A stretch of 64,000 nt of DNA from contig NZ_CP026652.1 of the NCBI RefSeq assembly GCF_002946835.1, positions 1,736,001 to 1,800,000 of the forward strand, written 5' to 3'. The position numbers and the translations under genes were made by a program. Positions 1 to 39,246 of this stretch are shown piece by piece; within the stretch, counting starts at the first letter, position 1, and the number at the start of each line of letters is the position of its first letter. Below the pieces are notes generated by a model. It saw only the letters and a program-made list of their open reading frames with translations. It made no database searches and was not told where the DNA came from. The stretch is from Streptomyces dengpaensis. GTDB taxonomy: Bacteria > Actinomycetota > Actinomycetes > Streptomycetales > Streptomycetaceae.

Positions 1-350
1 CGTCAGGAGCCCCTCAACGCCCGGCCACACTCATGTAGTCAATAGTGCGCCTGGCCAGCACATCCAAACACCCGACGCCCCATCAGAACGAGCTTAAAAT
101 GAGCGTCACGAGCGCCATCTCAGCGTCAAGATATCGCCCGTAACGCCCACACCGCACATAAGGCGCACGAATAAAACCGCAGTTCAGGAGCCCTTAGCTG
201 CCGGTCAGAGATCGCGACGCACTCCACATGATGGGTCTGCCGCGGACTGTCACGGAACCGCCTGGACACCCTCTACAGCCTGGTATCTCATAGCGGGACC
301 GTACTCGTCAGGCGAGGTCAGCTGCATCAGATCTGATCGCCCCAGCCTAT
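1..350. other. Non-coding left edge of the defence cassette
   Basis: No convincing gene is visible here. The stretch carries the first clear copy of the ~150-bp repeat described separately. At 1-40 there is what looks like the tail of a further, truncated copy: GTCAGGAGC, then a CCGG and an ACTCATG, in the same order as in the two clearer copies. This lies downstream of gajB, which reads leftwards, so the region may also hold its transcription end. Confidence 0.5.
68..237. repeat. Imperfect direct repeat, copy 1 (partner at 5187-5336)
   Basis: This matches 5187-5336 in the same orientation with small gaps. The longest identical block is about 41 bp (121-161 here, 5222-5262 there), starting CAGCGTCAAGATATCGCCCG. 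Further shared blocks are GACGCCCCATCAGAACGAGC near the left end and CGCACTCCACATGATG near the right end. The two copies enclose gajB, gajA and the CoiA-like gene. A recombination or attachment-site role is an inference; no tRNA or intact integrase is next to either copy. Confidence 0.8.
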
Positions 351-1385
351 TCACGGCAGCACGAAGGTCACGCTATGCCTCGCCCGTGTCACTGCGACGT
401 AGAACTTCGCCTGCTCATTGAGGACGTTGAAGTCGCGGGTCTTGTAGTAGGTGATCATGGGCTTCGTCGGGAAGATGAGCACCCGGTCGTAGGTGCTGCC
501 CTTCGAGGCGCCCATGTTTATCGCCTCAAGATCGCCCGTCTTGGTACGCCGGTCCCACCGCAATACGACCGGCGAGTACTGCGCTACGTACCCCGGCACG
601 TCCGACCCTCGGATGTCGAAGATGCCGTCATGCCCTGTCAGTTCCGCGTTCTTCGAGATGGTGCGGGGCAGCTTCGGGTAAAGGTCGTCTGCGAAGTCGC
701 AGATTGCCTGGTTGCAGCGATAACTCTCCACGCGGCTATCGATGACGCAGACGTCCATGCGCTCGTTGAACCAGTCGACGATGGCGCTTCCCCGGTACCG
801 CCTGTTCCTCGTGGCGGTATTGGTCGCGAACGTCGCCTGTCGGGGGTCACCCACCATCGTGAGACCGACAGGCGACTTCATCAGAGCGTCCAGTAGATCG
901 AGGTCGTACCCTGCCATATCTTGGATTTCGTCGACGTAGATGTGGTCGTACATCCCCGTAAGGCGGTCCACGACCCTGCCACCGCTTCGCTCGTTGGCCT
1001 CGTGCGCCAAGGCCGCGACCTCATTGCGGTACACGGCGCCAGCGGTATCGAGGTAGTACTGCTTCGGCTTGTCCTTGCGGGTGAACCGGGCCCGCTGCCC
1101 CAGGAAGTTAAGGCCACCCATCAGGCCGGTCTCGCCCAGAACGCAACTCTGGTAGGGGCGAGCGCACTGGTTCATCAGGAAGGTGAACCAGCCCATGACC
1201 GTGACGTGACTCGGCAGGATGCCGGTGCCTTCGCTCAGCCTGTTCACAATCTGGCTGAGGTTCTCATTGGTGTAGGTCGTCACAAGGACCCGCTTCGTCG
1301 GGTCACCGAGGACCCGGTCGATAATGTGCTGGGTCTTGTGCGAGCCGGCCGCCGCGATGATGGCCTGGTTGTTAGGAGACCGCAT
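351..1385 (-). CDS. gajB: Gabija system UvrD-like helicase GajB
   Basis: This 344-residue SF1A (UvrD/Rep/PcrA-like) helicase has the core motifs in order: Walker A variant AAAGSHKT (11-18), Walker B YVDEIQD (150-156), motif III VGDPRQ (178-183), SYRCNQ (221-226), motif V SKGSTYDRV (294-302) and motif VI YVAVTRARH (329-337). It overlaps the stop of gajA by 14 bp, so translation is probably coupled. An OLD-family nuclease followed by a small UvrD-like helicase is the signature of Gabija anti-phage defence, in which GajA cleaves DNA and GajB senses nucleotide depletion or DNA ends. It is clearly shorter than the roughly 490-residue Bacillus GajB, and the P-loop has His where Gly is usual. Confidence 0.87.
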   Translation of the reverse strand: MRSPNNQAIIAAAGSHKTQHIIDRVLGDPTKRVLVTTYTNENLSQIVNRLSEGTGILPSHVTVMGWFTFLMNQCARPYQSCVLGETGLMGGLNFLGQRARFTRKDKPKQYYLDTAGAVYRNEVAALAHEANERSGGRVVDRLTGMYDHIYVDEIQDMAGYDLDLLDALMKSPVGLTMVGDPRQATFATNTATRNRRYRGSAIVDWFNERMDVCVIDSRVESYRCNQAICDFADDLYPKLPRTISKNAELTGHDGIFDIRGSDVPGYVAQYSPVVLRWDRRTKTGDLEAINMGASKGSTYDRVLIFPTKPMITYYKTRDFNVLNEQAKFYVAVTRARHSVTFVLP

Positions 1386-2982
1386 CGATGGCCTCCGTGA
1401 TGTACGACGGCATCGTGATGGTCTGGTCGCTCTCGAAGATGGCCAGCGCGCAGTCAGTCTTGTGCTTGCTCATGTAGTCGAGCAGGGCGGTGTCAGTCCT
1501 GTGGCTCTGTCCGAGGACAGCGTTCAGATCAGTGAGTCCGTTCACCTTGAACAGCTGCGGCTCCAGGGTCTTGTACGTCGCGTCCTCGCCGACGTGGACA
1601 CTGATGTTGGGTTGAGCGGTATACCGGCTGTACCGCTGCTGCACATCCCGGGCGTCGTTCCCGTCGTTGTCCGTAACAACGGCGACGATGTTCTGCGGCA
1701 GCAGCATCGCGATATCAAGGAACCGCTTGAAGGAGAGCCCGCGGACGTTGATGACGTCGATGCCACTCTCAGCTGGAAGCTTGCCGCCATGCGTGTCCAT
1801 GTGGGCTCGCTGGATGACCAGTTCATCCGACGGGCCCTCGACGAGGATCGATCGCTTCGCTAGTACTAGACGGAGGGTGTCGTATCCCGAAAGCTTCCGG
1901 AAGTACTCCTGCGTGCCGGCCGGAAGGCGATCAAGGCGGACGCCTGCGGAGGAGGACAGCAGGACGAGCTTCTCCAGTCCGAGCTTGTTCAGCACGAAGG
2001 AGCTGTGCGTGGTGATGAAGACCTGACGGTCCTTGCACTTATCGCTGATCTTGCGGATCAGCTTGCCCAGGTTCGGGAACGAGAGGTGGTTCTCCGGCTC
2101 TTCGACGAGCACAATATGCGCGTCATCGACCTTCTTATTGAGGGCCAACAGGATTTTGAGTGTGCTCTGCTCGCCCTTGCCGACGAACTGGTAGGGAAGA
2201 TCGTCCAGGTGCGGCACGATGCCACTTTCCCAGCTCGACTTCTGCGAGACGTCGATGTTCAGCGTCAGCTCGCGGTCACTGACGTCGTTCGGGGCGCCTC
2301 GCAGGTCCCCATTGATCTTTGCGATCGAAGCATCTTCTGCGAAGGTCTCCCGAAGACTCCGGTACGCCCGTGCCAGTTTCACGCGCTCGTCTGCGTCCAG
2401 ATAGTCATTCAAGATGTGTCGCATGTAGTAGTCGACACCGCTTTGCAGGTGGATGGTGGCAGCATCGATCAAGGAAGCGGTAGCCGGGATGCTGCGGAAC
2501 GTGACCCCGTTCCCGTCAAATGAAAGCCATTCAACCTTGTAGTACTCAGTGGGGATCAGTCGAACCTTGTCAGGCCGCTTGATGAACTCCTTGTACTCCG
2601 CCTCGTAGTCCGAGTTCAAAGCGACTCGGACACGGACGCCAGGTTCATCTACCTTCAGGAGGTTGTTAGTCCCCTTGAGGCCAGCCGTCTCGGAGGACGT
2701 TTCCAGGAAGAGGTCGATGATGATTTCAGGAGGCGCAACCGGGCGCCCGACCTCCAACGCTGCGATCCACTCAGCAACGGCATCTTGGTGGAACAGATAC
2801 GGTGACAGGTCCTGGTAAAGCGGGCGTCCGCGCAGCTTACCGGTCAGGCCGAGCTCGATAGCATCCAGAATCGTCGACTTACCCGCATCGTTGTCCCCCA
2901 CCAAGATGTTCATCTTGGGGTCGAAGTCGAGAGTAAAGTCCCGGAATATTCGGTAGTTGCGAATGACGATCTTGGAAAGCAT
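1372..2982 (-). CDS. gajA: Gabija system OLD-family ATPase/TOPRIM nuclease GajA
   Basis: The 536-residue protein begins MLSKIVIRNYRIF. That ATG is preferred over an upstream in-frame start at 3090 because it follows a G-rich ribosome site and begins directly with the ABC-ATPase strand. The ATPase domain has Walker A GDNDAGKST (29-37), signature-like KGEQST (269-274), Walker B LVEEPENH (292-299) and H-loop TTHSS. The C-terminal TOPRIM domain shows LVEGPSDE (380-387) and TDNDGND (437-443), the metal-binding acidic residues. Length and architecture fit GajA (about 580 residues in Bacillus). It is the first gene of a two-gene operon with gajB. The pair is expected to act in the cytoplasm as a large supramolecular nuclease complex against phage. 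Confidence 0.9.
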   Translation of the reverse strand: MLSKIVIRNYRIFRDFTLDFDPKMNILVGDNDAGKSTILDAIELGLTGKLRGRPLYQDLSPYLFHQDAVAEWIAALEVGRPVAPPEIIIDLFLETSSETAGLKGTNNLLKVDEPGVRVRVALNSDYEAEYKEFIKRPDKVRLIPTEYYKVEWLSFDGNGVTFRSIPATASLIDAATIHLQSGVDYYMRHILNDYLDADERVKLARAYRSLRETFAEDASIAKINGDLRGAPNDVSDRELTLNIDVSQKSSWESGIVPHLDDLPYQFVGKGEQSTLKILLALNKKVDDAHIVLVEEPENHLSFPNLGKLIRKISDKCKDRQVFITTHSSFVLNKLGLEKLVLLSSSAGVRLDRLPAGTQEYFRKLSGYDTLRLVLAKRSILVEGPSDELVIQRAHMDTHGGKLPAESGIDVINVRGLSFKRFLDIAMLLPQNIVAVVTDNDGNDARDVQQRYSRYTAQPNISVHVGEDATYKTLEPQLFKVNGLTDLNAVLGQSHRTDTALLDYMSKHKTDCALAIFESDQTITMPSYITEAIDAVS

Positions 2983-3831
2983 GTACCCCCCTGGTACGAA
3001 ACTTCCTTCGGGCGAAGACCAGTGCCGAATTAGGTCAGCGGCACCAAGCTCCCCACGAGGCCCCACTACACCCTCTCGAACAAGTGGCACGGGAGCATAG
3101 CAGGCGTCACGCTAGCTCCAGGAAGAAGGCGACTTAATCGAACAAGCTCTCTATTTATGGGTCGCCACTCCGGTGGGTATCTTCTCCGTCGCCATTTGGC
3201 TGATGGGTGACCGCAGTAGCCGTACCTGACAAAATTGACGCACTGGTAACAATAAGCGCCTGCAAATATCGGTAGAGGCGCTTCGTTGTGTGCCGGGCTA
3301 CCGATTCCGAGGCGCAGGCCAGATGTGGTCGGCTCCCACGGGCTGAGCGCGAGGGAGCAACGCGCACGCACCATGGCGGGACCGCGAGCTTGACGCATTC
3401 GCCAGGACTGCGCCTCAATTCCCAGCGGGCGGCAACCCTCCCGCGAGGACATTGCCCGGTGGAAGGCGCAGCTCGACGAGGGCGAGACCTATGCCATGGG
3501 ATCCAGCAAGAGCCAGCTCCACCGATGGAACTGCCGTTCGCTCATGAGCCTCGAGAAGCGCGTCGAGGCCGTGGAGATAAGAATCGAGGTAGTCCGCACG
3601 GGCACAGCCACTGCAACCTGGCATGGCCCGGTCTTGCCTCCCTGTTCACCGCACAGGAGCTACGAGCGAAGAAGATTCGGAGGAAGCGCTGAGATCTGTG
3701 CGGACCTGACCCGCTGTAGGCGCCCTGCCCCCTGCGTCTCTCAGTGCGCCCTTTTCCGCAGGGCATCCCCGATTGTCAGACCCTCCCCGTAGCGTCGTGA
3801 GTCCTACTCATGGCGGCTGCGGGGAGCAGCA
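2983..3831. other. Intergenic region between gajA and the CoiA-like gene
   Basis: These 850 bases separate the divergent gajA (leftward) and CoiA-like gene (rightward) and should hold both promoters. On the minus strand, 3066-3452 is open for 128 codons. Its last half contains a CxxC...CGH cluster (AYCYQCVNFVRYGYCGH) that could bind zinc, and it ends just before gajA. I cannot tell whether it is translated: it has no good start site, and overlapping open frames on the other strand are equally long. Confidence 0.4.
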
Positions 3832-5055
3832 ATGGACGACGACCTTCAGATCGACAGCGACGAAGACCTCTTCCGTAACCCCGTCTACTACGAACCGGCC
3901 GGCCGGAACCTCGACCTGGACCGTCCCGACCTCGGCGTCCCGCAAGGCCAAGACCTCCTGAACGTGCTCCTGCGCATGCGAGGACGTGTCCCCGTCGAAA
4001 AGCGCGGGCTCATCTGCCCCGACTGCCGAGATCTCCGCGGCCGACGCGTCCCCATGTACCTCGTCCAGCGTGACGGCGTATGGCTTGCCTCCCACTACCG
4101 GAAACCCGGGGAGAAGCCCATCAGCCACGAGTCCGACGAGCACCTCGCCCGCAAGGAACGCGTCGCGAAGGACTCCGAAGATCACGGCTTCCACGCCGAC
4201 ATCGAGTCGCAGACCGCAGACGGGCACGCGCGCCTCGATGTACGCATCAACGGCGCCAACGGCATCATCCTGGGCTACGAGCCTCAGCTGAGCGCCCAGA
4301 CAGCCCGCGGAATGCGTGCACGGGAGGGGTTCCGGCGCCGCGGCGGCATTCAGTCTGTCTGGGACTTCGCCGACCCCGACCACGCAGGCATTGGCACCGT
4401 CCCTTACGTCCGTACACCCAACCTACCGGCCTCCGTCATCCGCGTGCAGAAGAACCCCATCGCGGTCCAGGACGGCAACTTCGTCGTGGAGGAGGGCCAG
4501 TGCAGCCAAAACGGCGCGCTCACCAGGTGCCCCGAGAAGCCCTACGACCCGGAGAACCCCACCGACGCCGGGTACTGCGGGGGCTGGCACCGCGTCCTCA
4601 TGCCCGCCCATCAGTCGAGCACCTTCACAGGCGAAGGCAGACTGACCCTCACCCGGTTCATCGTGGAAGCTGCGGCCGGTGAGCGGATCCCGTTCCAGCG
4701 GGGCGGCCACCACGGTTGGCTCCCCGCACAGCAGTGGCAGCAGTACCTTGAGGCAAACGGTCCCGCCCGGGACGACAAGGAGCGCCAGCCATTTGTACGG
4801 CAGGGGGACCGGCGCGACAGGTGCACCGAAGACCGTCCGGCTTCGGAGGTGCGGGCTGAACCGAAGCAGAGACGTGGCAGCCGCGCGATCGTCCTCGAGT
4901 CCCGCCCCCAGGAAACCGAAGCCGCCAAGGTTCCGGTCGACGCGTCGGGTCAAGCGATCCCGCTCTGCCGCTTCGGCTGTGGTCAGCCTGCAAGCCTTCC
5001 AGGACCCGAAGGGCTACCCGAGCACTTCTCGTGCCGCAGGAAGCATGAGGCGTGA
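3832..5055 (+). CDS. CoiA-like putative nuclease with terminal zinc fingers
   Basis: The 407-residue protein has an N-terminal CxxC...H element (C62, C65, H88, in a LICPDC...LASHY context) that resembles the treble-clef start of competence protein CoiA. Next comes a predicted restriction-endonuclease-like core: H104 in SDEHLARKE, D136 in ARLDVRI, and E150/Q152 in GYEPQLS followed by a basic helix. This matches the D...ExQ pattern of CoiA-like nucleases. A second zinc-ribbon-like set is at the C terminus (PLCRFGC and CRRKH). In Firmicutes CoiA acts in transformation. Here, beside Gabija and inside the repeat-flanked segment, a DNA-targeting defence role is more likely, but that is inference. 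The start ATG at 3832 follows a GGGGAG run. Confidence 0.6.
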   Translation: MDDDLQIDSDEDLFRNPVYYEPAGRNLDLDRPDLGVPQGQDLLNVLLRMRGRVPVEKRGLICPDCRDLRGRRVPMYLVQRDGVWLASHYRKPGEKPISHESDEHLARKERVAKDSEDHGFHADIESQTADGHARLDVRINGANGIILGYEPQLSAQTARGMRAREGFRRRGGIQSVWDFADPDHAGIGTVPYVRTPNLPASVIRVQKNPIAVQDGNFVVEEGQCSQNGALTRCPEKPYDPENPTDAGYCGGWHRVLMPAHQSSTFTGEGRLTLTRFIVEAAAGERIPFQRGGHHGWLPAQQWQQYLEANGPARDDKERQPFVRQGDRRDRCTEDRPASEVRAEPKQRRGSRAIVLESRPQETEAAKVPVDASGQAIPLCRFGCGQPASLPGPEGLPEHFSCRRKHEA

Positions 5056-5557
5056 TCTATCGGCCACCGCTGGCTGCCACTCGCTGTGTCACCTGGTGTC
5101 AGAGCCCCCTGCCCTGTTCGGGTGGGGGTGTCGTCTCGGCGCTCCATCAACGCTCGCCACCTCGACATGGTCTGACCTGCCCGACAAGCCACCTGACGCC
5201 CCATCAGAACGAGCGTCATTTCAGCGTCAAGATATCGCCCGTAACGCCCACACCGCACATAATGCGCACGCACAAAACCGCAGGTCAGGAGCTCTTCGCG
5301 ACCGGTTCAAGGATGGCAACGCACTCCACATGATGCGTCATCGGAAACAGGTGGAGACAATGCCGACGGCCCCAACCAGCGGTGCTGGCGCCGATTGGGC
5401 CCTATGCAACTCGCCTCCAACGCTGAACGGAGCAGGGTATCCGTCAATGGCCGGTTACCGAAACCGGTGATTCCTCGGACTATTGGCAGTCCACCGCGTC
5501 TCCCCGCTTCCCCACTGCCGCGGAAGCAACTTAACCCGAAAGGCACTGTTGACAGGA
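5056..5557. other. Intergenic region holding repeat copy 2
   Basis: No gene is recognised in these 500 bases. They contain the second copy of the ~150-bp repeat and then a GC-moderate leader that runs into the excisionase-like gene. At the repeat start, TGACGC and GCGTCA (5194-5218) form a perfect 6-bp inverted repeat, which is interrupted in copy 1. Confidence 0.5.
5187..5336. repeat. Imperfect direct repeat, copy 2
   Basis: Same orientation as 68-237. The blocks GACGCCCCATCAGAACGAGC, the 41-bp core at 5222-5262, GTCAGGAGC and CGCACTCCACATGATG occur in the same order. Copy 2 lacks roughly 15 bases present in copy 1 between the first block and the core. Confidence 0.8.
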
Positions 5558-5887: not shown

Positions 5888-5946
5888 GGTCCCCGTCTAC
5901 GCAGGACCCCCGCCGGAGCAAGCCGACGGGGATCCTCACGTGTCAC
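5888..5946. repeat. 59-bp hairpin direct repeat, copy 1
   Basis: Matches 12242-12300 in the same orientation at 57 of 59 positions by direct comparison. Inside it, GGACCCCCGCCGG and GCCGACGGGGATCC form a 13-bp stem with two G-U pairs and a short loop. The copies flank a 6.35-kb segment with the transposase, SUKH, DUF6000 and abortive-infection-like genes. Confidence 0.85.
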
Positions 5947-6302
5947 AGCCCCTATGAGCGGGGTCCTGTGGCTATCTGACCAGGTAGAAGACTTTCCGGG
6001 CCGCGTCGCGTTGCCGGTACCGGGCCAACCGGGCGGTCAGAATCGTGAGGACGCCACAAAAATCGGCAGGCCCCTGACTTGTTGAATCGGGCCCAGACGC
6101 GCGGTCTGCAGCCGTAGCGTCCAGGGTGTCGGTCGGCACGGGCCCGCAGTGCCCCTTGCCGCCCATGGGCTGGCTCTCCGATAGCGTGCCGCCGCCGGCC
6201 GACACCCACGCGGTGTGGCTCGACAGAGGCATGAACGTGTGCGACCGCTACTTCAAGTCAGGGTGCCCACCGCATACTTCGCCGCTTCGAGTACAGACCG
6301 GG
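5947..6302 (+). other. Long 5' non-coding leader of the IS110-type element (possible bridge RNA region)
   Basis: There is no credible gene between the 59-bp repeat and the transposase start. IS110-family elements carry a structured non-coding RNA (bridge RNA) in a non-coding end next to the recombinase gene, commonly the left end. This 350-base leader has several self-complementary GC blocks and is a fit location. The element's ends cannot be defined by eye, because the family lacks terminal inverted repeats. Confidence 0.4.
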
Positions 6303-7343
6303 ATGCGCGTGATCACGATCGGGATCGACCCCCACAAGTCCTCTCACACCGCCGTCGCCGTGGACGGCGCAGGCCACAAGACCGGCCAGCGGCGCTTCGT
6401 CGTCAACGCAGGCACTTTCACGCAGCTGATGCGCTGGTGCGAGCCGTGGCCCGAGCGCCGCTTCGCCATCGAAGGCGCCGGCGGCCTGGGCCGCGCGCTC
6501 GCCCAGCAACTGGCTGCCGCGGGTGAGGACGTGGTGGACGTCCCCTCCACCCTGTCCGCGCGTGCACGCCTGCTGGCCACCGGAGGGGACCGCAAGACCG
6601 ACCCCGCCGACGCCCTGCACGTCGCCCAGGTCGCGCTCTTCCGCCAGGACCTGCGCAAGGTCACTCCGGAGGACCAGTCCACCATCCTCCGATTGCTCAC
6701 AGAGCGTCATGACGACCTGGTCAACGAGCGGACCCGCACCACCAACCGCCTCCACGCCGTCCTGCGCGACCTGCTGCCCGGCGGAGCCCCCACCGGCCTC
6801 TCGGCGGACAAGGCCGCCACGCTAATGAAGGGCATCCGCCCGATCACGGCCACCGACAACTGCCGCCGCGACATAGCCCGTGATCTGCTGGCCCACCTGC
6901 GTCGGCTGGACCAGCAGGCCAAGGCGAACGAGGCCCAGATACGCGACGCCCTGGCCGCGTCACAGACCACGCTGACGTCGCTGCCGGGCCTGGGCACCGT
7001 GCTCGCCGCGAGGATCCTCGGCCACATCGGCGACATCGATCGCTTCCCGACTGAACACCATTTCGCCAGCTATGTTGGCGCGGCACCGCTGGACGCCTCC
7101 AGCGGGAAGAACATCCGGCACCGGCTCAACACCGGCGGAAACCGTGCCCTGAACTCCGCGCTTCACATCATCGCCGTCTGCCAGATCCGCAATCCCGGTC
7201 GCGGCCAGGACTACTACCTGCGCAAGATCGCGGAAGGCAAGACGCCCGCAGAGGCCCGCCGGGCCCTGAAACGACGCCTCTCCAACGTGGTCTACCGAAT
7301 CATGAAACGAGACCGTCGCAGCCATCTCGCAACCGCAGCTTGA
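6303..7343 (+). CDS. IS110-family transposase (DEDD recombinase)
   Basis: The 346-residue protein starts MRVITIGIDPHKSS. The N-terminal RuvC-like DEDD domain has D9 (GIDPHK), E57 (AIEGAGG) and D100/D103 (KTDPADA). A coiled middle region follows. The C-terminal Transposase_20 domain has SLPGLGTVLAARILG and YVGAAPLDASSGK, which holds the conserved serine (S266 or S267), then NRALNSALHIIA. All expected catalytic residues are present, so the element may be active. An in-frame start at 6126 would add 59 residues lacking family character. IS110 recombinases work with an element-encoded guide RNA. Confidence 0.92.
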   Translation: MRVITIGIDPHKSSHTAVAVDGAGHKTGQRRFVVNAGTFTQLMRWCEPWPERRFAIEGAGGLGRALAQQLAAAGEDVVDVPSTLSARARLLATGGDRKTDPADALHVAQVALFRQDLRKVTPEDQSTILRLLTERHDDLVNERTRTTNRLHAVLRDLLPGGAPTGLSADKAATLMKGIRPITATDNCRRDIARDLLAHLRRLDQQAKANEAQIRDALAASQTTLTSLPGLGTVLAARILGHIGDIDRFPTEHHFASYVGAAPLDASSGKNIRHRLNTGGNRALNSALHIIAVCQIRNPGRGQDYYLRKIAEGKTPAEARRALKRRLSNVVYRIMKRDRRSHLATAA

Positions 7344-7481
7344 CACACAGAGGCGCTATCGGGACACGCCCCGCCAGCCCAGCACCGACAACGCACCATC
7401 CCGGACCAACCGCCGTCAAGAACGGACGGCGGATGCCTTCTGAGTGACTCGTTGTCAGTGGTGGCTGGCACGATCTCGGCC

Positions 7482-9377
7482 ATGAGCGACGAGTCTTTCA
7501 ACTGGCACGACTTCCTCGGCCGTTGGCAGGAGGAGTGGGTTCCCCGCGCCGAGCACGAGGAGGACGGGGACGGCGGTCCAGGTCCCGTCAGGCTGGGCAG
7601 GCCAGGGGCGGACGAGGCCGCGATCACCACGGTCGAGAAGCGGCTGGGGAAGCGACTGCCGCCCTCCTACCGCCAGTTCCTGGCCACGAGCGACGGATGG
7701 CGTGTGGAGCAGACGGCCGGGGTCTATCAGCTCGGTGGGATCGCGGACATCGACTGGTCCCGGGATCCGTACGGATTGACCGAGGTGTACGAAGAGAATC
7801 TGGGCGACGACCCGCGCGAGCAGGAAGTCCTGCTCGCCGGCATGTGGCAGCGATCGCTGCGCCTGGAGACGGACTCCGATATGACGCTGGCTCTGCTCGA
7901 CCCGGGCGACCGCGACGAGCACGGCGAGTGGGCGCTCTACATCTACAAGGGCTGGAGCGGTGAATGCCCGGACCGCTACCCGTCGTTTCGTGCCTACATG
8001 GAGGCCATGTACCGGAGCTTCCACGGCGACCGGGTGGGGCGGCCGGGCTTCGAGAACGCCACCACGCGCGCCCAGGACGCCCGGGTCGAGGAGGCCCGCC
8101 TCCTCGCCCTGCGCGGACGGCATGAGGAGGCCCTGCCCTTGCTCGAGGAGGCGCGGTCCTTCGGACGACCGAACAGCGCCATTCTGCTGAACCAGTTGCA
8201 GCATCTGGCGGCTCCCCGCGCTCAGCGGGACTACGGCTCCCTTGTGGCTGACCCCCGCTATCTGCCCGAGCTCCTTACGGTGTCGGCCATCGAACCGGCC
8301 TCCGGCGAATGGCGACTGGGCGGAGACGACCACTGGCTGGGGATGATGGCCGCCCGTGGGGTCGACCGGGAAATCGCCGAGGCCCTGTTGAGCGCGCTTC
8401 GCGACGGCACCCATCGCTATGCGCCGCCGGGTGCGTGGGGCCGGGCCGTCAACGAGGCCCGGGAGTCGGCCCGATGGGGAGCGACCGATGCCGCGTGGCG
8501 AATGCTGCGCGACGCGCTTACGCAGTGGATACCACCTGGGCCTTTGCTGCTCGCGCCCCTTGGTCTGCTCGCCGATCCGGTTCTGGGGTCGCTGATCACT
8601 CCGCAGCGCGGGCGAGAGATCCTCGCGACTCCGCGCGCAGGCGAGTCCGGGCCCGCTCCCGAGCCGGCGCCCGATCTCGACCCGCCGGGTCTCACCTGGC
8701 TGACGACGACCGGGATACATGGGCGGCCATTCGACGCGTACCGCTGCGTCTGGGTCGAGGGCGCCGACCCCGCCGGCCTACCCTCTCTGATAGGCGACGA
8801 GGGTGCCGAACTGAGTGAGCCCGTGCACGCAGCCAGGGCGTACCGGCCGTTGAGGCAGAACCACGAGCGGGAGGGCGTCGAGCTTTGGGAGGACCGGGCC
8901 GCGGTCATGGCCGGCCGCTGCAGCGAGGGGTGGGCCTTCGCCTTCGACGGCCAGTCCCGCCAGGGCATCAATCACCTGTTCCAGTCCCCCGCCGCGGCCG
9001 CCTCCGCGTCGGGTCGCGCCGTGGTGGTGTGGCGTGAGCCGCAGCGGCACTTGGCTGATCACCCGGCCGCATTCCATGTCTCGGTGGCCGAACGCGGCGT
9101 GGAACTCTATGCGTTCACGGTGCGGGGCAACGACATCCGGCGCTCGGGTGCGATACCCAACACCCTGGATCCCGCGCGATTTGTCGGCTCACCTGACACC
9201 CATCTTGACCGAGAGGTACGCCTGTTGGAAACCCTGCACGCCGAACTGGGCATCTCGCTTCCCTGTTTCGCCCTGTCCCAGGGCAGCCTCCCCATGTTCA
9301 CCACCCGGTCCTGGACCCGGGCGCCGCGCGAGGGCGAAGGCTTCGCCTACCTGGGCTTCGTACGGCGTCGCCCCTGA
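7482..9377 (+). CDS. SUKH (SMI1/KNR4) domain protein, large
   Basis: 631 residues from the ATG at 7482; an upstream TTG at 7452 is less likely. The first ~190 residues form an SMI1/KNR4 (SUKH-1) domain: ITTVEKRLGKRLPPSYRQFL, then a glycine-tryptophan-rich section ending YPSFRAYMEAMYR. SUKH proteins are widespread immunity proteins against polymorphic nuclease and deaminase toxins. The remaining ~430 residues are not recognised. They include a short stretch around EEARLLALRGRHEEALPLL that looks TPR-like, and a C-terminal globular part. No toxin gene is next to it, so it could be an orphan immunity gene. Confidence 0.65.
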   Translation: MSDESFNWHDFLGRWQEEWVPRAEHEEDGDGGPGPVRLGRPGADEAAITTVEKRLGKRLPPSYRQFLATSDGWRVEQTAGVYQLGGIADIDWSRDPYGLTEVYEENLGDDPREQEVLLAGMWQRSLRLETDSDMTLALLDPGDRDEHGEWALYIYKGWSGECPDRYPSFRAYMEAMYRSFHGDRVGRPGFENATTRAQDARVEEARLLALRGRHEEALPLLEEARSFGRPNSAILLNQLQHLAAPRAQRDYGSLVADPRYLPELLTVSAIEPASGEWRLGGDDHWLGMMAARGVDREIAEALLSALRDGTHRYAPPGAWGRAVNEARESARWGATDAAWRMLRDALTQWIPPGPLLLAPLGLLADPVLGSLITPQRGREILATPRAGESGPAPEPAPDLDPPGLTWLTTTGIHGRPFDAYRCVWVEGADPAGLPSLIGDEGAELSEPVHAARAYRPLRQNHEREGVELWEDRAAVMAGRCSEGWAFAFDGQSRQGINHLFQSPAAAASASGRAVVVWREPQRHLADHPAAFHVSVAERGVELYAFTVRGNDIRRSGAIPNTLDPARFVGSPDTHLDREVRLLETLHAELGISLPCFALSQGSLPMFTTRSWTRAPREGEGFAYLGFVRRRP

Positions 9378-9451
9378 GGCGACGCTACCGCAGAGCGGCG
9401 ACCACGGCCTCGGCCACCCGGGCGAAGAGGCGGTCGTCGTATTCGGCATTG

Positions 9452-9826
9452 TCACCCTGCCCAGCCGTACACCGTGGCTACACCGCCGCCCTGAGTCCTC
9501 GCACACACCAGGACCCACCGCACACCAGGAGCCAGGTCCCGCTGATCGAGGGCCCGCACCGCAGCGCTGGCCGACTCGGCCACATCGGTGCCTGACGCAG
9601 CCGTCACGGTGATCACGTAGTCGCGTCCGGCGAGTTCGAAGAACACGGCCGGATCATCGGGCGAGTGGTAGTCCACCGTCGCCTCGGCGTCGGTCCGCCG
9701 GATCAGAGCCGCCACCACGTTGACCAGGAGCCGGTGCCTGTCCCGCTCCGACACCTCGTCACTGTGACACTGACCGTACTCGGCCAGCAGCTCCCGTACG
9801 TCCTCCATCGACCCCGCCCCGTGCAT
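9452..9826 (-). CDS. Hypothetical protein, C-terminally frameshifted
   Basis: A 124-residue frame starting MHGAGSMEDVRELLAEYG; MEDV at 9808 is an alternative start. The function is not recognised. The stop at 9452-9454 follows a GGG run on the coding strand. Removing one G would continue the frame as WAGDNAEYDDRLFARVAEA and on to a stop at 9385-9387, which converges neatly on the SUKH gene. That continuation has typical Streptomyces coding character, so the visible stop is probably a single-base insertion, either a real mutation or a sequencing error. The intact product would be about 146 residues. Confidence 0.5.
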   Translation of the reverse strand: MHGAGSMEDVRELLAEYGQCHSDEVSERDRHRLLVNVVAALIRRTDAEATVDYHSPDDPAVFFELAGRDYVITVTAASGTDVAESASAAVRALDQRDLAPGVRWVLVCARTQGGGVATVYGWAG

Positions 9827-10009
9827 CGTGCCTGCCGGGCACCACGCCCAGAGGAGCGACTGTCGCCCACACCCGGGCACGACGCGCGGTGATCACGGAG
9901 CCAGCCGCGTGAGCCGTTTGGCATCCCGCGCGACGGCCCTCCGTATCGTGATCGGCTGGCTGATCGGCGAAGTGCGTGAACTCATCGGAAGAGTATTTCG
10001 CACCGAGGA

Positions 10010-10165
10010 GTGCCTTCATGCGGCGGGTCGGCTGCTCGGGCAGGCGTTCTGCACCGCTCCCGGGAACCACTCGTGCGGGAGATCGATCGCCACCAGCGCG
10101 TCGCCGACCGCACCACCAGCCTCTTCGATGACCTCGGCGAACCACACGACGGGTCGGCCGACTGA
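10010..10165 (+). CDS. Short coding-like remnant
   Basis: The frame from a GTG at 10010 gives 51 residues ending LVREIDRHQRVADRTTSLFD and DLGEPHDGSAD, charged and helical with good third-position GC. It overlaps a GAGGAG ribosome-site-like block. It looks like the C-terminal part of a larger gene whose upstream part is missing, but I do not recognise the family. The opposite strand is open here too (10016-10267). Confidence 0.3.
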   Translation: MPSCGGSAARAGVLHRSREPLVREIDRHQRVADRTTSLFDDLGEPHDGSAD

Positions 10166-10222
10166 CCAGTGCGACTGAGAAAAACACTGGTCGCACGGCT
10201 TCGCCCAGGACAGGATGCGGCT

Positions 10223-10849
10223 ATGCGTTACGCCAACGAGGACCCCGAGCTGCTCGCTCTTGTCCACCGCTACGTCACGCCCGACAGGCGCTATCTCAAA
10301 CTCGGCGGCCCTCTCATGCGCATGACCGAGCCTGAACGCACCAAGTTCACACGGGAGCTCGGCGAGGCCGCCGACGACATCACGCCCCGCGAGCTGACCA
10401 TCCTACTCGAAGGCACGTGGCGCGAACGCAAAACCGCAGCCTGGCTCATCGCCGTCGCCCACAGAACTGAGTTCCGCGAACGCCTCGGCGAAATGCTGCT
10501 TGCCAGCGAGGTCTGCTTCGCAGGCTCGGCCTACTGCGTCACCTTCGCCACGTTCGCGACTCCCGCCGACGCGGACCTGCTGGCTGCCTACCTCGATCGC
10601 TACCTGCGACGCCTCGACCTCTACTACGACCAGCCGGCCGCCTTGGGCGCGCTCCTCCACCTCGACGCCAAGCTCCGTGCCGATCAAGCAGCCCGATTCC
10701 TGACCGCGGAAGGCCTCTGGCATCAGTGGATCGACGGACCGCCCCGCAAGGAGCACCACGGCACGCCGGACAGCTATCGCGAGGCCATCAGCCGTCTCTG
10801 CGTCTTCGCCGATGAGAGCGCCGAGCACCGCCCGGCAAGGAACGGATGA
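10223..10849 (+). CDS. DUF6000-family protein
   Basis: A 208-residue cytoplasmic protein starting MRYANEDPELLALVHRYVTP; an AGGA lies 9 bases before the ATG. The pattern RRYLKLGGPLMRM, then WRERKTAAWLIAVAHRTEFR, then LLASEVCFAGSAYC and ADADLLAAYLDRYL, is that of the actinobacterial DUF6000 family, whose role is unknown. Repeated aspartate-rich helices with conserved RYL suggest an all-helical, HEAT-like fold. It lies among immunity- and defence-type genes; a similar role is possible but unproven. Confidence 0.65.
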   Translation: MRYANEDPELLALVHRYVTPDRRYLKLGGPLMRMTEPERTKFTRELGEAADDITPRELTILLEGTWRERKTAAWLIAVAHRTEFRERLGEMLLASEVCFAGSAYCVTFATFATPADADLLAAYLDRYLRRLDLYYDQPAALGALLHLDAKLRADQAARFLTAEGLWHQWIDGPPRKEHHGTPDSYREAISRLCVFADESAEHRPARNG

Positions 10850-11070
10850 CGTCGTCCTCAGAGGGGTGACACCTGATCGAAGGGACCCACCGCCCCGCAA
10901 CTCAAGGTTGTCCAGATAATCAACGCACAAGCCGCTATTGTGGCGCTGAGGAATAGGGCAATCGTGGTGGCACAGACTGGGCACCGGCGGCTGCCCTGGC
11001 AATGCTGTACGTCGCGTGCCAAGGTCAAGGCGCTGCCTGACCGGCAGGTGGGAGAAGCTGCATCAGCGCA

Positions 11071-12045
11071 TCAGAATGGCGCTTCCGCGGTACCGCCTGA
11101 TGGCATCGCACCGGGCAGTACACCTTCGGGAAGCGGCAAGTTGGTCACAACGAACTGGTTCAGGATGTCGTCGCGATCCATGAACATGATCTGGCTCCGC
11201 TTCGCCGCGTCCAAAGCATTGCCCAGCCAGTTGCGTGCAGCCTTGGTGATCTCGCCGCCAGCGACGATGAAAGCATGATCAACGAGAACGCGCCGGTTGG
11301 TCTCGGGGTCGAAGATCTCGTGCGCCAGCATCATCAGAGCCTGGTTATGAATCTCAGCAACGTTGGCATTGCCCGCCCTGGACTTTCCCATAGCGTCCAG
11401 CTTCCCGCGCTTCACCTGGATACCGAAGTACAGGAAGTGCTGAGCCTTTGTCCCGGTGCCTGGCAGCTGTGATCCGTTGAAACCCCACCTGCCGGAAAAG
11501 AGGCAGCAGCACCTGCTCGTGAGCGCATCCTCACTGCACGTGTCCAAGAACGCAGCAAGAGCCGCACGTCGCTGCATCTCGGCGGCACTCAGGGGACGAT
11601 GTGGGTTCTTGGCCAGCACCGAGACGGTGTTCGTTCCGATGTGCCGCAGGTAGCAGTGCTTGTCCTCCCCGTAGAAGGCTTCGAACCCCTCACGGGCAAG
11701 TGCATTGTTCAGCAGCCGCAAGGCATTGGGCCGGTCGAGCCCCTCGTTGAGAGCGTCCGCGGGATTCATCAGGTGGTCGATCACCCTGGAAAAGGACTCC
11801 GGCGGGTGCGCAGGTCCCTCGTGCGGCTCCGCCAGCAACTGCTCAAGCACACCCGCGACCCAACGGTGCCGCGTCGAACCGTCATGCTCCCAGTCCATAT
11901 CGAGTTCCCCGAAGAACTCGGTGATGTACATGCTCGACCGGTACGGGAAGTACGCAGGCTCGGCATCACCCTGAGGGACGTCCGCACCGAGGTTCCCGCA
12001 AATGAGATCGCCCAGCAGTTCCAGCGTTCTCTTCCTGAACTTCAC
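11071..12045 (-). CDS. Abortive-infection-type protein with a restriction-endonuclease-like C-terminal domain
   Basis: The GTG at 12045 follows GGGGAGGGG closely and gives a 324-residue protein starting VKFRKRTLELLGDLICGN, which fits AbiJ-type N-terminal domains. It continues with FPYRSSMYITEFFGEL and DWEHDGSTRHRWV. The C-terminal half has FGIQVKRGKLDAMG, then AEIHNQALMMLAHEIF, then VDHAFIVAGGEITKAARNW. This resembles Mrr-like endonuclease folds, where a QxK or ExK pair and a following helix form the active site. It is probably a self-contained phage-defence effector in the cytoplasm, the last intact gene before the second 59-bp repeat. Which Abi subgroup it belongs to is uncertain. Confidence 0.6.
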   Translation of the reverse strand: MKFRKRTLELLGDLICGNLGADVPQGDAEPAYFPYRSSMYITEFFGELDMDWEHDGSTRHRWVAGVLEQLLAEPHEGPAHPPESFSRVIDHLMNPADALNEGLDRPNALRLLNNALAREGFEAFYGEDKHCYLRHIGTNTVSVLAKNPHRPLSAAEMQRRAALAAFLDTCSEDALTSRCCCLFSGRWGFNGSQLPGTGTKAQHFLYFGIQVKRGKLDAMGKSRAGNANVAEIHNQALMMLAHEIFDPETNRRVLVDHAFIVAGGEITKAARNWLGNALDAAKRSQIMFMDRDDILNQFVVTNLPLPEGVLPGAMPSGGTAEAPF

Positions 12046-12241
12046 GACGCCCCTCCCCAGACCCCACGCCAGCAACGACGTGCGAACGATTGTGCCCTGC
12101 AGTCGCAGGACCCGAAGGTGCGAGCCGCTGTCCCCCTCCGAAAGAGCACCCTCGTCTCGGGGTACCGATGCCTTCCTGGAACCCGCAGGACGAGACCATG
12201 CGCGCATGCCCGTGGCTCACCTGCCATCAGCGTGCGGACGC

Positions 12242-12300
12242 GGTCCCCGTCTACGCAAGACCCCCGCCGGAGCAAGCCGACGGGGGTCCTCACGTGTCAC
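12242..12300. repeat. 59-bp hairpin direct repeat, copy 2
   Basis: Second copy of 5888-5946, same orientation, two mismatches. It overlaps no recognised gene and lies about 200 bp upstream of the abortive-infection-like gene's start. The internal stem is AGACCCCCGCCGG with GCCGACGGGGGTCC. Confidence 0.85.
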
Positions 12301-39055: not shown

Positions 39056-39246
39056 TCAGCCCTGGGGAGAATCTGGGGAGTTTCGACTGGCATGCAGATC
39101 TCCCTGTCTCCCCAGCATTCCATCGATGGCCGTCCGCCCCTTGCTTCCGACCTCCGGCATGAAGTGAGCATACTGACCGAGGGTGACCGCTGGTGAGGAG
39201 TGCCCGAGCCACCGAGGCATAGGTGGCGCAGCACCTGGCGAACCAA
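39056..39246 (-). pseudogene. Decayed tyrosine recombinase (integrase) C terminus
   Basis: One frame reads PRWLGHSSPAVTLGQYAHFM followed by PEVGSKGRTAIDG and a stop at 39056: the end of a phage integrase with the box II His and the nucleophilic Tyr (QYAHFMP). Immediately upstream the family's LRH-TYAS block is seen split over two other frames (VLRH and TYASV), so the copy has frameshifts and a small deletion. It marks the left border of the 39-49.6 kb island. Confidence 0.75.

Follow-up and report, generated by a model that had tools for sequence, protein, structure and literature searches.

Repeats around a Gabija defence unit in Streptomyces dengpaensis as probable attachment-type sites at the 3' end of a uracil methyltransferase gene

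A stretch of 64,000 nucleotides from the chromosome of Streptomyces dengpaensis (NZ_CP026652.1, positions 1,736,001 to 1,800,000) begins with a Gabija defence unit enclosed by two copies of an imperfect direct repeat. The whole stretch is called the window, and coordinates without a prefix refer to it; other genomes and loci carry our G and L handles. We propose that the repeats are probably attachment-type sites, whose islands integrate at the 3' end of a conserved uracil methyltransferase gene of the TrmA superfamily (the MT gene), with accretion of elements at these sites. The features discussed were the following.

1..40, + strand: possible truncated gene-end remnant, marginal (local alignment)
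52..240, + strand: repeat copy 1, iteron arm and MT gene-end remnant (profile match hmm 2-191, E 6.9e-54)
121..161, + strand: 41-bp core of copy 1, the same as in copy 2 (sequence comparison)
351..1385, - strand: gajB, UvrD-like helicase of 344 aa (PADLOC GajB, 1.7e-109; Pfam UvrD-helicase, 1.1e-9)
1372..2982, - strand: gajA, ATPase with OLD-like TOPRIM (PADLOC GajA, 1e-206; Pfam AAA_15 and OLD-like_TOPRIM)
3832..5055, + strand: possible PD-(D/E)XK nuclease of 407 aa, 'CoiA-like', divergent from the gaj genes (invariant residues, weak fold matches)
5173..5352, + strand: repeat copy 2, iteron arm and MT gene-end remnant (profile match hmm 2-201, E 1.2e-54)
5222..5262, + strand: 41-bp core of copy 2 (sequence comparison)
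5285..5352, - strand: MT gene-end part of copy 2 (minus-strand frame ...LFPMTHHVECVAILEPVAKSS-stop)
5353..5482, + strand: second (P'-type) arm, drawn by eye, of the type beside the repeat in L022
5483..5833, + strand: HTH_17 protein beside copy 2 (Pfam HTH_17, 2e-6)
39110-39220, - strand: tyrosine recombinase fragment of 37 residues (49% identical to the L025 C-terminus, E 1e-8)

The repeat and the genes it encloses

An earlier note on this DNA had described an imperfect direct repeat with a 41-bp identical core that encloses gajB, gajA and a divergent gene, and this arrangement was found again when the copies were placed at 52-240 and 5173-5352 by a profile of 61 copies, two from the window and the others from 59 genome stretches. 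A gapless repeat search of the window paired 108-205 with 5209-5306 (98 bp, 90%), plus flanking blocks. Copy 1 has a 1-bp deletion and a shortened right end, and copy 2 has one 20-bp iteron pair fewer than copy 1. The left ~110 bp of the repeat is a conserved arm bearing GAGCGTCA iterons, and the right third is the final ~70 bp of the MT gene; in copy 2, MT residues 433-456 align to 5362-5291. The earlier description of the repeat as non-coding thus holds only in part, since the MT 3' end lies within it and, at the native site, it runs on into that gene. The exact core was present in 59 other stretches of a one-genome-per-species collection, 58 of them titled Streptomyces, and because it is identical in both window copies and in these stretches it does not reflect chance. 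To the right of the core, the copies from the 59 stretches fell into two classes. In the first, the reverse complement continues into a gene ending ...LRAFDLFPMTHHVECVAILEP..., and in the second the likeness to the MT gene ends at about GCGTCATCGG. A third, truncated copy suspected at 1-40 was marginal: its 23-column local alignment to the gene-end part, with the first 11 bases identical, had a score equalled by 3 of 2000 shuffles and by 7 of 1719 60-mers of the window, and the profile search of the window did not report it.

The adjoining genes for a GajA ATPase-TOPRIM protein and a GajB UvrD-like helicase have the predicted composition of a Gabija system. The ATG start of gajA was placed at 2982 in an open frame that extends to 3090, and GajB is short compared with its best PADLOC models of 365-369 positions. 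Close GajA homologues were found in three other genomes among 199 (G190, G136 and G177), and a direct link between Gabija and the repeat was seen in none of them: the G190 homologue was not near a repeat, the repeat listed for G136 was on another contig, and G177 had no repeat match among the matches listed.

The product of the divergent gene had been called CoiA-like. It had no match in Pfam (E up to 10), where a CoiA profile match would have appeared, or in PADLOC or NCBIfam. When it was aligned with 14 homologues, E125, D136, E150 and Q152 were present in 15 of 15 rows, a conservation that would suit a PD-(D/E)XK nuclease. The structural model was of modest quality (pLDDT, a per-residue confidence score, 65.5), and the fold search gave no match at E 0.001; the top ten, at E 0.013-0.14, include EndoMS, VRR_NUC, Hjc and MspJI, which we take to share the PD-(D/E)XK fold. 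CoiA also has this fold. In the sense of a nuclease fold the name is plausible, but not proven. In G038 (where the repeat is the native MT one), G178 and G109, remnants of the gene were found at distances of 0.3-0.5 kb from repeats, and in G106 the distance was 6.5 kb. Five intact close homologues (G194, G052, G195, G018 and G016) had neither a detected repeat nor Gabija in the 9-20 kb that were read around them. Thus, the nuclease gene is sometimes, but not always, linked to the repeat. A relative of the window's HTH_17 gene lay 6 kb from the homologue in G194. A travelling pair of Gabija and the nuclease gene was looked for and not seen; the nuclease homologues elsewhere lacked Gabija within the distance read.

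The methyltransferase gene end and the spread of the repeat

The MT gene of S. dengpaensis matched the Pfam profile tRNA_U5-meth_tr above the cut-off. The profile itself gives the TrmA superfamily; we take the gene to be RumA/RlmD-like. A 176-base repeat query found matches in 170 of the genus's 199 genomes. In some of them the match covered only the gene end, which any intact MT gene may supply, and in at least 102 of the 199 it extended into the arm. The native site was compared in 51 genomes, drawn from those with few contigs (1-5) and a repeat match. Each of the 51 had a single MT homologue, which was without an internal stop in 50. At the native MT gene the repeat is continuous with the intact gene; the arm was present in 36 of the 51 genomes, the gene end only in 12, and no BLAST match was found within 400 bp in three, one of which is S. 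dengpaensis. The copies that border the Gabija unit hold the 3' end of a gene that stands intact, with the same site, elsewhere in the genus.

In six genomes (G003, G028, G064, G072, G109 and G155), which were chosen because two copies were listed near each other, a second copy with the orientation of the native MT copy was found 11-29 kb downstream of it. G082 was removed from this set as its MT match was 29% identical over residues 310-455 only. In the 51 genomes, all 63 non-native matches downstream of the MT gene had the native orientation, 39 of them within 100 kb, and G133 carried six matches within 63 kb; four rows (G000, G003, G009 and G190) were excluded from these counts as further pieces of copies already included. 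A native copy followed by downstream copies of the same orientation with MT-end remnants is the pattern of attL/attR and of accretion. The site was also found on two linear Streptomyces plasmids (NZ_CP108566.1, 254507-254657, and NZ_CP120984.1, 48618-48786), which share the genes on one side of it (a type VII secretion system-type protein and a CHAT protein) and differ on the other.

The position just downstream of the MT gene, which the conserved arm occupies in those 36 genomes, would also suit an ordinary regulatory or terminator element of this gene that was duplicated by chance with neighbouring DNA. This explanation is very improbable in our view. When 59 of the 61 exact-core copies were counted (33 non-native and 26 native, two being excluded for too short a flank), 33 had no detected MT gene alongside, copies lie on plasmids, and the native MT gene of S. 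dengpaensis lacks the conserved arm in the profile alignment. In addition, copy 2 as single-stranded DNA showed no folding advantage over its shuffles, with z 0.76 and 1.05 for the two strands.

Matches more than 100 kb from the native gene were polarised: on linear assemblies, 28 of 30 pointed away from dnaA, for which a binomial p of 4e-7 overstates independence. The exceptions were G091, where the native gene is inverted too, and one weak 44-base match. The tally omits four short (23-28 bp) matches in G046, G086, G102 and G181, one pointing away from dnaA and three towards it, and with these it becomes 29 to 5; also outside it are one match on another contig and three far copies, all pointing away from dnaA, whose assemblies were treated as permuted. 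The flanks of 24 far copies were mostly different; in 13 pairs 150 bp or more of flank was shared, in 8 of these on the same side. This sharing means that there were fewer than 30 independent events, and that some far copies are in the same place by descent or have mobile genes in common. The idea that old copies were serially displaced outward, away from the MT gene, was not supported, since far matches score higher than near ones (median 123 vs 60.8 bits). As a speculation that we hold to be improbable, the far copies would not be random strays, and one attachment site could form a genus-wide, origin-polarised network on chromosome arms and linear plasmids, through which arms, plasmids and strains could exchange whole defence units or arm ends; such exchange would be feasible because a linear chromosome stays viable after crossover between sites of equal orientation.

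The uniform orientation of the copies would also suit integron-like sites that recombine as single strands, and the bottom strand of copy 1 folded somewhat better than shuffles (z -2.1). Against this stand the folding of copy 2 and the adjoining recombinases that were tested, which match the general phage-integrase family, no integron-integrase-specific profile having been run. We rate integron-like sites as even less probable than a duplicated regulatory element. An integron cassette with a folded attC bottom strand was likewise rejected, as there was no consistent fold across the two copies.

At the native MT gene of S. dengpaensis itself, the Wadjet genes JetA2-JetB2-JetC2 adjoin the gene (G000:C1:2171088-2178009; L070:1089-8010), GAGCGTCA and CAGGTCAG motifs lie downstream of it, and two small open reading frames (ORFs) that by their look alone resemble a toxin-antitoxin pair also flank it.

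The island, its relatives and the genes beside the repeat

A look to the left of base 1, suggested earlier as a way to find another repeat-delimited unit, revealed defence genes. The 35 kb left of copy 1 encode PglW, PglX, BrxC/PglY, PglZ, BrxD and BrxHI, a BREX/Pgl set that we take to be 'type 2', together with a pPIWI-RE protein; the ORFs at the left end include one DDE transposase. By profile search no repeat copy was detected between BREX/Pgl and pPIWI-RE. The view that the repeats delimit units therefore holds for copies 1 and 2 around Gabija and fails for these neighbours, at their left end as well as between them. The BREX/Pgl set looks complete and, with pPIWI-RE, lies directly left of copy 1 (G000:C1:1709174-1735885; L065:13174 to L064:19885). 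A 1272-aa ORF between the two systems (L064:13446-17264) had a weak AAA match only.

When 144 kb of this genome were compared with the loci of relatives, 607 of the 786 bases in the right flank of copy 2 aligned to G012 and G376 at 95% identity. In G376 the shared flanks are 437 bp apart, compared to 40.2 kb in S. dengpaensis. The right-flank similarity in G376 starts at 5307, inside the gene-end part of copy 2; on the left, the last shared block (80%) ends 34.9 kb left of the window, and collinear blocks continue to -79 kb. G376 thus represents the site without the 40-kb island, though not without the 5-kb unit alone, and the left junction has no repeat. G012 carries one full repeat, the same helix-turn-helix (HTH) gene, 4.2 kb of other DNA encoding a 692-aa protein without a family, and then the same left block. 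An empty site with a single copy had been proposed earlier as a check; the sites found were one without the island (G376) and one with a single repeat and other cargo (G012). At the homologous locus G353 has 9.8 kb with pPIWI-RE, and G355 has a gene of the family termed c3 to the left of its repeat-HTH pair. In G353, G333, G161 and G228 the right-flank similarity starts at 5534 or 5618, beyond the repeat.

To sample the cargo, 15 genomes were picked irrespective of content and 10 kb next to the native repeat was taken from each; parts of three of these regions (G003, G077 and G089) had been fetched earlier. At E <= 1e-20, the 102 proteins of the native-side regions matched 125 PADLOC families, vs 6 for the 115 proteins of control regions, which were the 10 kb lying 300 kb further out and were viewed in summary only; many of the 125 are overlapping models of one system, and the contrast lists families, not regions. 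The reading by region covered 16 proteins from 12 of the 15 regions and the type I restriction-modification (RM) genes, which were assigned to L094 and L105 through protein cluster 11, with ORFs picked by a third-position-GC rule. A clear defence system was present in 5 of 15 regions: type I RM in L094 and L105, pPIWI-RE with DinG in L097, Shedu in L098 and PglZ in L104. L100 and L103 were not counted, as the mad3-type models also match three control proteins, and the tested proteins from L091, L092, L093, L096, L099, L101 and L102 had no PADLOC match at E 1e-10. Some of the cargo was plainly metabolic (L095 and L102). The check proposed for the core was thus borne out by different defence cargo beside the same repeat. 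The suggested modular cassette is largely right, with movement of Gabija and the nuclease gene as one 5-kb unit a hypothetical part of it.

On the far (gene) side of the core, many non-native copies carry a second arm. AGCGTCA was found there in 11 of 33 non-native copies vs 0 of 26 native ones, and AGGTCAG in 13 of 33 vs 0 of 26; these motifs were picked after viewing the sequences, with a shuffle expectation of about 0.4 each. The P' arm exists in several types, as judged from 93 copies that contain overlapping loci from the same genomes. Window copy 2 and L022 have a similar P' arm, followed by related HTH genes that are 82% identical. Homologues of the HTH_17 gene were 106-133 bp from the repeat in L022, G012 and G355, and 1.5 kb from it in L042 (66%). 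By its size, domain and position the window protein is excisionase-like.

Tyrosine recombinases were present in L024, L025, L037, L056, L071 and L080, that is in 6 of 86 clustered loci (4-30 kb), a count biased by the choice of loci around repeats. Five were recognized by a Pfam phage-integrase match, and the one in L056 through 89% identity to that in L080. A related HTH gene lies just before the integrase in L071, L037 and L024; the L071 gene, the one of the three that was compared with Pfam, matched HTH_17 slightly below the cut-off. A search with the L071-type integrase gave matches at E <= 1e-30 in 8 of the 51 genomes, and two full-length proteins (89-95% identical) lie 629 bp (G106) and 542 bp (G004) from a repeat. 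The phage-integrase profile matched 23 times in S. dengpaensis, always more than 26 kb away from the copies, the match nearest copy 1 being 47 kb to its left, and the genome has no L071-type integrase. When the six integrases were compared with the window, the 37-residue fragment was the one match, with nothing else below E 0.1. The earlier statement that no intact recombinase adjoins the genes thus holds for tyrosine recombinases; serine recombinases were not searched for.

Many repeats are adjoined by ORFs of the family c3 (e.g. L041:3294-4691 and L077:3506-5005). Five members tested had no Pfam match. At E <= 1e-6, c3 was found in 24 of 51 genomes, though not in S. dengpaensis. At 10 places, spread over 8 genomes, no more than 300 bp separate it from a repeat; many others were far off. 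In the structural model (pLDDT 76.5; pTM, a global confidence score, 0.45) a helical N-terminus precedes strands and a long helix. Identification by fold failed, as there was no match in the PDB at E <= 0.001, and several low-ranking high-probability matches were winged-helix proteins. As a guess, c3 might be a DNA-binding accessory of recombination.

Integration at the gene end and comparison with known islands

The proposed mechanism, which is the simplest account, starts from a site composed of an arm with GAGCGTCA iterons and a core formed by the last ~70 bp of the MT gene. At the native site the core continues into the intact gene, and in many other copies it continues into the second arm, P'. 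Internal copies thus have the order P-core-P', which abutting successive elements should produce. Recombination between a resident site and a circle with one site would leave one copy at each end, the likely agent being the pair of tyrosine recombinase and HTH protein found beside some copies. Repeated integration events would give arrays of copies, and many units would have lost their recombinases after accretion, in line with what is published for AICE remnants (PMC9513070) and for the modular PAISt (PMC4057263). Copy 2 is the right border of the 40-kb defence island (BREX/Pgl, pPIWI-RE, and Gabija with the nuclease), and copies 1 and 2 delimit the Gabija unit. On this mechanism the unit would be a recombinase-less module bounded by two sites, which could move only in trans or through homologous recombination between copies. 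The anatomy, the distribution, the variable cargo and a site without the island were observed directly, while the acting recombinase, excision and movement of the Gabija unit are inferred. The earlier contrast with an integrative and conjugative element (ICE) placed the emphasis wrongly: the anatomy is that of a site-specific island at a gene's 3' end, with relatives that have an adjacent tyrosine recombinase.

Several observations weigh against attachment-type sites. The Gabija unit of the window has no tyrosine recombinase of its own, where an island of this kind should have one (serine recombinases lay outside the search). An L071-type integrase occurs in few of the 51 genomes, and the other six matches are away from repeats, five being fragments of 83-186 residues and one being 51% identical over 308. 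AGGTCAG is missing from 20 of 33 non-native copies. The copies in S. dengpaensis are 438-708 kb from the native MT gene (at 2.18 Mb), which itself lacks the conserved arm. The left flank of the island is based on a 1.1-kb block at 80% and the collinear blocks of G376, and the profile search found no repeat copy at the left end of the 40 kb. Finally, the evidence comes from assemblies, in which excised circles cannot be seen.

Some of these observations would be explained if the repeat were an old immobile relic of earlier integrations that gives RecA-type exchange, with no site-specific recombinase acting today. The low number of loci with a clustered tyrosine recombinase, the distance of the copies from the native gene and the four relatives whose right-flank similarity begins outside the repeat all point in this direction. 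In contrast, the similarity in G376 starts inside the core, P' arms carry the same motifs, and full-length integrases adjoin repeats. We therefore find homologous recombination on its own doubtful; it is a serious rival all the same, and exchange between copies may act as well as site-specific integration.

Attachment-type sites at the MT gene end can be compared with known systems, for which we draw on parts of the cited papers. PAISt of Streptomyces turgidiscabies lies in the 3' end of bacA with 138-141-bp gene-end copies as borders; an internal third copy splits it into separately excisable modules of 105 and 569 kb, a tyrosine recombinase lies at one end, and tandem insertion of a test plasmid was seen (PMC4057263). 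The islands described here are likewise at the 3' end of a conserved gene with repeat copies of the gene end, but they have a different target gene, units that measure from a few to some tens of kb and often lack a recombinase, and a conserved non-coding arm in the repeat. The staphylococcal cassette chromosome (SCC) element SCCmec and the Enterococcus cassette chromosome (ECC) are also located at the 3' end of rlmH, an RNA methyltransferase gene, with ~50-bp att repeats, several attR in some, and highly variable cargo (PMC6222049). They differ in the target and in the large serine recombinases CcrAB, compared to a TrmA-superfamily target and a tyrosine recombinase candidate here; membership in SCC/ECC was rejected because the target is not rlmH, serine recombinases not having been searched for.

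GItrmA of Shewanella putrefaciens is a defence island (type I RM, Kiwa and DarTG) with an excisionase, in a gene of the same methyltransferase superfamily (PMC12016545). Unlike the islands here it is a single 31.6-kb island inside trmA of a gammaproteobacterium, and the passages of PMC12016545 on it describe no repeat array. Streptococcal ICEs in rumA share a uracil methyltransferase gene as the target, of the 23S rRNA type in their case, and differ by their serine integrase, 2-21-bp repeats and conjugation modules (PMC4701971). Actinomycete ICEs (AICEs) of Streptomyces show accretion, with elements and decayed remnants stacked at one site between the same direct repeats; their cargo includes phage resistance (PMC9513070). 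Stacking between shared direct repeats would be common to both, whereas AICEs target tRNA genes and rlmN and are traB/rep/int elements (PMC9513070). Membership in the AICEs was rejected, as no TraB-, Rep- or Int-like gene matched in the window unit; the other islands had no TraB-specific search.

Gene-end islands, islands in RNA methyltransferase genes and trmA defence islands are therefore already in print, as far as the parts of these papers go (PMC6222049, PMC12016545, PMC4701971, PMC4057263). Less expected, perhaps, are the spread of one site through the genus, the scarcity of recombinases in its defence units and the polarity of the copies. A limited search of titles and abstracts of the open-access literature turned up no description that we recognized as this site. 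For a recurrent defence-island locus of Streptomyces, a genus central to antibiotic discovery, the analysis provides an attachment site, an arm alignment, a candidate recombinase and HTH pair, and an island-free site. The repeat can be used as bait for island borders, and the c3 family is now a defined target.

To the right of the HTH_17 gene, a 6.3-kb insertion at 5888-12300 contains an IS110 transposase (Pfam, 6126-7343), an SMI1/KNR4 gene, a DUF6000 gene and another ORF. It is bounded by 59-bp direct repeats (5888-5946 and 12242-12300, 97%), and in six relatives (G012, G376, G353, G333, G161 and G228) it is absent and the flanks are joined.

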